Below are positions 41,991-43,257 of a DNA stretch of 63,780 bases, one piece after another. Position 1 is the stretch's first letter; each line of letters begins with the position of its first letter. Under the pieces are notes generated by a model that saw nothing but the letters and a program-made list of their open reading frames with translations, did not search any database and was not told where the DNA came from. The stretch comes from Ignavibacteriota bacterium (GTDB lineage: Bacteria > Bacteroidota > Ignavibacteria > UBA10030 > BY39). The stretch covers positions 1-63,780 of the forward strand of contig QOQV01000014.1 of assembly GCA_003327435.1 (NCBI GenBank), given 5' to 3'. The position numbers and the translations under genes are program-made.

Positions 41991-43101
41991 TATTTCAAGT
42001 TTTCTGTATGATAAGAGTCTGGAAATTTATCATCTTATAAAGATAGAATTCTTGAGTTTAGATAGATAATAAAAGAATAAAAATATGAAGGGTAATCAAT
42101 TGTATTGATTGCCCTTTTTAATTGTTACTGTGTGATTCTCAGCCAGAGGCTGATGCGCCACTGGTGCAGAACCTGCGAGCATTAATTGAAAGAAGACTTC
42201 TTATTAAAGTTGTTTAACAAAAGCCTTGTTGTTAGGAACTTACATTGTAATAAAATGTGAGTGGACGCTGCGGGATTCTCAGCCAGAGGCTGATGCGCCA
42301 CTGGTGCAGAACCTGCGAGCATTAATTGAAACCAGACTTCTTATTAAAGTCGTTTAACAAAAGCCTTGTTGTTAGGAACTTACATTGTAATAAAATGTGA
42401 GTGGACGCTGCGGGATTCTCAGCCAGAGGCTGATGCGCCACTGGCGCAGAACCTGCGAGCATTAATTGAAACCAGGCTTCTTATTAAAGTCATTTAACAA
42501 AAGCCTTGTTGTTAGGAACTTACATTGTAATAAAATATTAGTGGACGCTGCGGGATTCTCAGCCGGAGGCTGATGCGCCATTGGCGCAGAACCTGTGAAC
42601 ATTAATTGAAAGAAGACTTCTTATTAAAGTCGTTTAACAAAAGCCTTGTTGTTAGGAACTTACATTGTAATAAAATATTAGTGGACGCTGCGGGATTCTC
42701 AGCCAGAGGCTGATGCGCCACTGGCGCAGAACCTGCGAGCATTAATTGAAAGAAGACTTCTTATTAAAGTTGTTTAACAAAAGCCTTGTTGTTAGGAACT
42801 TACATTGTAATAAAATATTAGTGGACGCTGCGGGATTCTCAGCCGGAGGCTGATGCGCCATTGGCGCAGAACCTGTGAACATTAATTGAAAGAAGACTTC
42901 TTATTAAAGTTGTTTAACAAAAGCCTTGTTGTTAGGAACTTACATTGTAATAAAATATTAGTGGACGCTGCGGGATTCTCAGCCGGAGGCTGATGCGCCA
43001 CTGGCGCAGAACCTGCGAGCATTAATTGAAAGAAGACTTCTTATTAAAGTTGTTTAACAAAAGCCTTGTTGTTAGGAACTTACATTGTAATAAAATGTGA
43101 G
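41991..43101. other. Gene-free region holding a terminator and the 140-bp tandem array
   Basis: No coding region is visible. About 100 AT-rich bases and a terminator follow the beta-helix gene; the rest is the seven-unit array that abuts tRNA-Val. Confidence 0.85.
42088..42120 (+). terminator. Intrinsic terminator after the beta-helix gene
   Basis: AAGGGTAATCAA (42088-42099) pairs with TTGATTGCCCTT (42105-42116) over 12 positions with one G.U, 5-nt loop, followed by T. Confidence 0.88.
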
Positions 43102-43113
43102 TGGACGCTGCGG
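42134..43113. repeat. Seven-unit 140-bp tandem array derived from the tRNA-Val 3' end
   Basis: Seven head-to-tail units of exactly 140 bp start at 42134, 42274, 42414, 42554, 42694, 42834 and 42974, differing at only a few positions. Each junction reads GTGGACGCTGCGG-GATTC and then GAACCTGCGA, which is the 3' part of the tRNA-Val gene seen from the plus strand (43101-43127). In every unit a 30-bp insert splits GATTC from GAACC. The insert is two abutting hairpins, TCAGCC-AGA-GGCTGA and TGCGCC-ACT-GGCGCA. Loops vary (AGA or GGA; ACT or ATT); units 1 and 2 carry GGTGCA in the second arm. Other inverted repeats per unit are TTACATTGTAA and AACAA-AAGCC-TTGTT. No ORF or clear promoter is seen. Confidence 0.95.
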
Positions 43114-43176
43114 GATTCGAACCTGCGACCTCCGCCTTGTAAGGGCGGCGCTCTGAACCAACTGAGCTAAGCGTCC
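43102..43176 (-). tRNA. tRNA-Val (TAC)
   Basis: A complete cloverleaf of 75 nt on the minus strand: acceptor GGACGCT/AGCGTCC with discriminator A, D arm GCTC/GAGC, anticodon stem CCGCC/GGCGG with loop CTTACAA (anticodon TAC), T loop TTCGAAT. The T stem GCAGG/CCCGC has an A-C mismatch in the middle (51-63). CCA is not encoded. The 3' end lies at the array boundary and is the source of the repeat. Confidence 0.95.
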
Positions 43177-43185
43177 AAATATCTG

Positions 43186-43257
<72 letters not shown>

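Follow-up and report, generated by a model that had tools for sequence, protein, structure and literature searches.

A tandem array of hairpin-split tRNA-Val fragments in an Ignavibacteriota genome, probably derived from small GIY-YIG elements found at tRNA genes

Results

A seven-unit array of split tRNA-Val fragments lies 3′ of a tRNA pair

The window analysed here is a 63,780-nucleotide stretch of an Ignavibacteriota bacterium (contig QOQV01000014.1). On its minus strand lie tRNA-Gly(CCC) (43185–43257), the upstream member of a tRNA pair, and an intact tRNA-Val(TAC) (43101–43176), both identified by ARAGORN and Rfam RF00005; in the sequence of the latter the T loop, TTCGAAT, is unbroken. 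The T stem of this tRNA-Val is GCAGG/CCCGC with an A-C mismatch, and the same stem was seen at three other loci of the order (L155, L156 and L159). Immediately 3′ of the pair, downstream in the sense of transcription, Tandem Repeats Finder delimited a tandem array at 42134–43118 with a period of 140, 7.0 copies, 96% matches and 0% indels. An earlier note on this DNA had proposed seven units built from the 3′ end of tRNA-Val; the array is real and its unit length of 140 exact, but the array runs to 43118 rather than 43113.

Read in the tRNA sense, all seven units contain TTC, TGCRCCARTGGCGCA, TCAGCCTCYGGCTGA and GAA in succession. The T loop is thus split precisely at TTC|GAA by exactly 30 bp consisting of two 15-bp perfect or near-perfect hairpins, and both the break point and the insert length agree with what the note had read. 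Each unit begins with GAATCCCGCAGCGTCCACT, corresponding to the 3′ half of the tRNA-Val T arm and the acceptor strand, continues through an A+T-rich spacer of ~80 bp into CTCGCAGGTTC, the 5′ half of the T arm, and closes with TGCGCCAGTGGCGCA and TCAGCCTCYGGCTGA, the two 15-bp hairpins, each of which has a 6-bp stem and a 3-nt loop.

All units lie on the minus strand. The tRNA-proximal unit 1 (42979–43118, hairpin pair at its end, 42979–43008) starts within the intact tRNA gene, whose own end supplies its GAATCCC. It is followed by unit 2 (42839–42978, hairpin pair 42839–42868), unit 3 (42699–42838, pair 42699–42728), unit 4 (42559–42698, pair 42559–42588) and unit 5 (42419–42558, pair 42419–42448), then by unit 6 (42279–42418, pair 42279–42308) and the distal unit 7 (42139–42278, pair 42139–42168), the last two each with one A.C stem mismatch in the tRNA sense. 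A full tRNA 3′ end is present in six split copies, as had been claimed for every unit; the most distal copy keeps only GAATC (42134–42138, minus strand) before unrelated flanking sequence begins (compare the empty site L155 below). Just distal of the array is a terminator-like palindrome, GGGTAATC...GATTGCCC (42087–42117). Elsewhere in the window, a 32-bp tandem repeat, CTGAGCGTTAGCGAAGCATCTGACTAAAACTA, occurs in two copies at 649–710 and is, as far as seen, unrelated to the array.

The earlier note would have given up its reading had the unit turned up in many places away from tRNA genes and lacking a break in the T loop. This was not the case: the 140-bp unit occurs at a single place in its own genome, apart from its hairpin part, which also stands at the start of contig C19. 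The copy number was taken from a short-read draft of 23 contigs, in which the genome's own tRNA-Ser element (see below) is broken at contig ends, and an array assembled in error has to be considered on these grounds. We give this almost no credence, as the units are not identical (12 of 140 columns vary) and analogous arrays exist in unrelated assemblies (L099, L113 and L145); any doubt is therefore confined to the number of copies.

The array differs between congeners and appears to have grown by blocks

Units 2 and 4, counted from the tRNA, share three private changes (the T100/A103/A118 haplotype), further changes are common to units 6 and 7 and to units 5 and 6, and a comparable tRNA-Pro array in L113 likewise has a two-unit periodicity. 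Given this periodicity and the shared haplotypes, growth by recombination of unit blocks fits better than seven independent insertions. Between the repeated events and the amplification that had been suggested, the data thus favour amplification, through blocks of several units, over seven separate insertions.

In the congener G397 (L155), the tRNA pair, the terminator-like hairpin and the downstream gene are all present and the array is absent, which makes this an empty tRNA-Val site; the hairpin, which matches the palindrome of the window, stands a few bases after tRNA-Val. The array was therefore either gained here or lost in G397, at tRNA-Val. Counting other genera, in which full or internally deleted tRNA-Val elements occur, presence and absence can be compared at one homologous site.

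Lying directly 3′ of the tRNA pair and sharing its strand, with a terminator-like palindrome beyond it, the array would also suit a non-coding RNA, read through from the tRNA operon and processed to 140-nt pieces in the manner of rtT in E. coli tyrT, whose anatomy it resembles; the unit also folds better than its shuffles (z −2.9). Nevertheless, there is no Rfam match at E 1, rtT (RF00391) included, and the array is absent from G397. The T stems of split copies moreover decay like those of pseudogenes, 37 one-sided changes having broken a pair and 25 having kept it, next to 15 two-sided changes that kept it; no clear excess of compensatory changes was found in these stems, and the hairpin stems lack a strand bias between G.U and A.C (4 G.U and 3 A.C by hand count). 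Taken together, we consider an RNA of this kind improbable.

Double hairpins mark split tRNA copies in distant bacteria

We searched for the double hairpin with a generic pattern that fixed only TTC, the GCC/GGC cores and GAA, leaving two positions per side free. It matched in 7 of 395 genomes of the phylum and a reversed control pattern gave zero matches, so the pattern is commoner than chance. Across 84,980 species genomes of the GTDB collection, double hairpins were recovered in 77 stretches, mostly from Ignavibacteria and other FCB (Bacteroidota), candidate-phyla bacteria and Omnitrophota, with a few others, and mainly within partial copies of a neighbouring tRNA. Despite the free positions, both 6-bp stems were perfect at 87 of 93 sites. 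Three matches in Streptomyces, with imperfect stems, were rejected as chance; setting them aside left 90 sites, 75 of which have a T-arm context.

A same-strand tRNA lies within 500 bp of 63 of 80 distinct split-T-arm sites, as compared to 11% of random positions, and the split copy mostly repeats the 3′ end of the adjoining tRNA. The search in relatives that the earlier note had recommended thus returned analogous units beside other tRNA genes. No match to the hairpin pattern was found in IMG/VR, leaving a viral vehicle without support there. A separate set of double hairpins, in candidate-phyla and Ignavibacteria genomes, sits in a non-tRNA context (L085, L086, L110, L124, L129, L133, L135–L137 and L151), mostly with TCCGCC in both stems.

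A GIY-YIG nuclease gene accompanies the split copies and tracks the tRNA isotype

Within 400 bp of 31 of the 75 T-arm sites (41%, versus 7% of random positions) there is an open reading frame for a GIY-YIG protein, and at the non-T-arm sites there is none (0 of 15). Where such frames accompany split sites they lie on the tRNA strand without exception (35 of 35). All 17 proteins compared match Pfam PF01541, the first with 64 bits at a gathering cut-off of 22.6, and across these 17 sequences Y5, Y16 and R26 are invariant and E62 nearly so, which constitutes the Tyr, Arg and Glu core. A single-sequence AlphaFold model (mean pLDDT 80) has as its nearest fold the UPF0213 protein 1zg2, and as its second the catalytic domain of I-TevI. 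At two loci (L149 and L152) the GIY-YIG frame extends into the next gene, tRNA-Gln.

The association also holds when approached from the nuclease. An unbiased search of 60 genomes of the order with the nuclease alignment detected the gene in 49. Among the 30 best loci, which were fetched, all 26 with adequate flanks have a same-strand tRNA within ~400 bp, and over all nuclease loci the figure is 49 of 55; the isotypes represented are Ser, Leu, Pro, Val, Arg, Ala, Asp and Cys. Double hairpins adjoin 16 of 30 of these nuclease loci (reversed control, 0), and at several GIY-YIG/tRNA loci no hairpin pair was detectable. The nuclease tree follows the tRNA isotype, requiring 14 isotype changes versus at least 22 in 200 shuffles, or 9 versus at least 14 once the candidate-phyla rows are removed, with many of its forks weak because the protein is short.

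Full elements join an intact tRNA, a nuclease gene and a displaced tRNA copy

Full elements consist, in this order, of an intact tRNA, a GIY-YIG gene of ~80–90 codons whose start is a few bases away from that tRNA or which lies close by, and a displaced partial copy of the same tRNA with a hairpin-split T loop. The tRNA-Val(TAC) locus L202 comprises the intact tRNA, 4 bp, the GIY-YIG gene and a copy of tRNA-Val that starts at the D stem; in this copy a long hairpin stands in place of the anticodon arm and the double hairpin splits the T loop. In L156 the element at tRNA-Val(TAC) is internally deleted: its nuclease frame is shortened, and the hairpins of its split copy are of 11 bp. In L161 a GIY-YIG gene adjoins a tRNA-Val that contains an assembly gap. 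In the displaced tRNA-Val copies of L202, L122 and L161 alike, a long hairpin, TCCCGTCTC...GAGACGGGA or one like it, takes the place of the anticodon arm.

Mirror-image elements occupy the other side of the tRNA, where a 5′ partial copy is split in the D or anticodon loop. Upstream of tRNA-Ser in L191, the 5′ copy is split in the D loop (GTGGTT|GAATTGG), both flanks matching the intact tRNA with no loss and no duplication; in L193, also upstream of tRNA-Ser, the 5′ copy is split in the anticodon loop as well (GGTCTC|GAAAACC). Split copy and nuclease gene together form one tandemly repeated unit in L087 and L078. The genome of the window (G000) has such components at two contig ends: at the end of C11 (L050:672–868) a GIY-YIG frame follows tRNA-Ser(GGA) after two bases, and at the start of C19 (L009:1–150) a hairpin pair precedes GAATCCCACCCTTTCCGC, an ATG and a decayed GIY-YIG frame. 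GAATCCCACCCTTTCCGC is the tRNA-Ser 3′ end, as found in the C11 tRNA-Ser(GGA). The two contig ends are probably the two sides of one repeated tRNA-Ser/GIY-YIG element broken by the assembly.

Elements driven by tyrosine integrases typically cross over in the T loop and duplicate the tRNA 3′ end, and the empty site in G397 would be expected of an integrative element, relic or minimal, with its att site in the T loop of the tRNA, as the earlier note had envisaged. No integrase-like frame was noticed near the array, however, when the open reading frames from 36 to 50 kb were inspected by eye, and the gene that recurs beside such arrays encodes a GIY-YIG protein. Hairpins furthermore split D loops, anticodon loops and a CRISPR repeat in addition to T loops. 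As far as can be seen no integrase is involved, and we regard this explanation as very improbable; that part of the note's proposal which saw a relic of an element using the T-loop site is accepted as right.

No GIY-YIG remnant was detected inside the 140-bp unit (best HMM E 0.26), so the argument that it descends from an element with a nuclease gene is based on common anatomy and on what relatives carry at this tRNA. Since the nuclease gene is absent from the locus, anything acting on the array of the window would act in trans. On balance, we think it probable that the array derives from small mobile GIY-YIG elements that target tRNA genes, in a form that has no ORF and has been amplified in tandem.

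The hairpin pair also behaves as a module of its own

The 30-bp pair also occurs as a separate module at non-tRNA sites, a point absent from the earlier note. When searched for without the TTC/GAA flanks, it was present in 25 of 60 genomes, with up to 23 copies, and at 58 of 71 sampled sites there was neither a tRNA nor a nuclease nearby, so that a separate mechanism may move the pair. The flanks of these sites favour T at −2, a pyrimidine at −1, a purine at +1 and A at +2 (YTC/YTT|RA), a preference that makes the TTC|GAA of a T loop a near-ideal insertion site.

On contig C2 of the window's own genome (944–973; L285:945–974; also L214), the pair interrupts a CRISPR repeat (GTCTCAATTCCACTATGGTCCGATTCAAAC) as GTCTC[30 bp]AATTCC, between repeats that are intact, and there is no target duplication. 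The pair therefore inserts as a discrete unit without duplicating its target, and its insertions into D or anticodon loops of tRNA-Ser copies are likewise exact and free of duplication. Interrupted and uninterrupted copies can be compared both at this repeat and in the tRNA-Ser D loops, where the pair works like a mobile double-hairpin element. An earlier CRISPR repeat, near L285:445, contains hairpin remnants at the same point together with another insert, and at L083:2500–2560 hairpins are nested in the loop of another hairpin, as if a pair had inserted into a pair.

Such independence raises the alternative that the arrangement at tRNAs is coincidental: a dispersed hairpin would have entered the TTC|GAA of a spare tRNA 3′ fragment, ordinary replication slippage or unequal crossing-over would have multiplied it, and the GIY-YIG gene would be merely another tenant of the tRNA neighbourhood. 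The dispersal of the pair, a target preference that T loops match and a two-unit periodicity typical of recombination are all compatible with this. By contrast, coincidence accounts poorly for the enrichment of the nuclease at T-arm sites, always on the tRNA strand and never at non-T-arm sites, for the single repeated unit formed by split copy and nuclease gene in L087 and L078, and for the recurrence of interrupted tRNA copies across many lineages and tRNAs. We judge it unlikely, while granting it some real weight.

Discussion

Assuming descent of the array from nuclease-bearing elements, we infer the following sequence of events. The nuclease would cut an intact tRNA gene in a loop or close to one. 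Repair would install a copy of the element while always preserving one intact tRNA and displacing the old fragment, which would amount to homing. The 30-bp pair is itself an insertion unit, entering NTY|RAN sites with no duplication of the target, and as a double hairpin it would mark the displaced tRNA copy: a fragment split in this way would be protected, being no longer cuttable, and could not re-form a whole tRNA gene. Repeated cutting, with recombination between the tRNA-derived direct repeats, may then have produced the seven-unit array. The main weakness of this scheme, alongside the missing nuclease remnant, is that the retained intact tRNA has the same T loop that is proposed as the cut site; no resistance-type T-loop change was found in the element-bearing tRNAs.

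More broadly, and tentatively, these loci may represent integrase-free parasites of tRNA genes: isotype-specific GIY-YIG elements that duplicate a portion of a tRNA gene, leave one tRNA whole and close off the displaced copy with a 30-bp double-hairpin insertion in its D, anticodon or T loop. In this view, nuclease and dispersed hairpins would make up a single mobility system, some forms of it autonomous and others lacking the gene, in Bacteroidota and candidate-phyla bacteria. The element family is widespread in environmental bacteria and apparently undescribed, and no description of the tRNA/GIY-YIG/split-hairpin arrangement was found in open-licence PMC full texts. There is a realistic chance that, tRNA-linked free-standing GIY-YIG nucleases and mobile double hairpins being already known, their combination constitutes a new kind of element.

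Tandem non-coding units, each with a short copy of the 3′ end of the preceding tRNA, are known as the rtT repeats of the E. coli tyrT operon (Rfam RF00391). To our knowledge, rtT has neither a hairpin-split T loop nor a linked nuclease, and unlike rtT the array of the window has no match to RF00391. The source for rtT is Bosl and Kersten (1991), as cited in PMC2965389.

An experimental parallel is SegB, a free-standing homing endonuclease of T-even phages that is widely linked to tRNAs of many isotypes (PMC13096335). In phage T6 this GIY-YIG protein drives tandem amplification of a tRNA segment via homologous recombination (PMC13096335). As with SegB, the GIY-YIG gene described here is co-located with tRNA genes of many isotypes and may be connected with tandem amplification of a tRNA segment; unlike that phage gene, it is found with chromosomal tRNAs, falls into subfamilies that track the isotype, and is accompanied by a 30-bp double hairpin in displaced fragments.

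The hairpins themselves recall the double-hairpin or repetitive hairpin elements of Allomyces and sponge mitochondria (PMC2800124), which are also very short, dispersed insertions without flanking duplication. Those elements, however, are mitochondrial, and the likeness drawn here is one of form. We know of no mitochondrial double hairpin that lies in a tRNA loop with a GIY-YIG gene.

In fold, the predicted protein appears closest to the prokaryotic Slx1-like or UPF0213 GIY-YIG proteins, which have a minimal single-domain structure and gave the best structural match; 1zg2 has been placed among bacterial Slx1 relatives (PMC1564403). UPF0213 proteins are treated as repair-type, whereas the genes here are multicopy, tRNA-linked and often decayed. 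REP/BIME sequences likewise pair GC-rich hairpins with a nuclease gene, RAYT, which encodes an HUH (Y1) nuclease. The present system differs in that the partner is a GIY-YIG protein and the hairpins interrupt tRNA copies.

tRNA genes are classic landing sites of integrase-driven elements. Here, in bacterial groups far apart from each other, they appear to be used by a different and much smaller system with a nuclease of ~85 residues. If confirmed, this system would explain why these genomes contain a set of short GIY-YIG genes and of GC-rich palindromes, provide a chromosomal counterpart to the SegB type of tRNA amplification, and serve as a small model in which to test how a selfish nuclease lives within essential genes.
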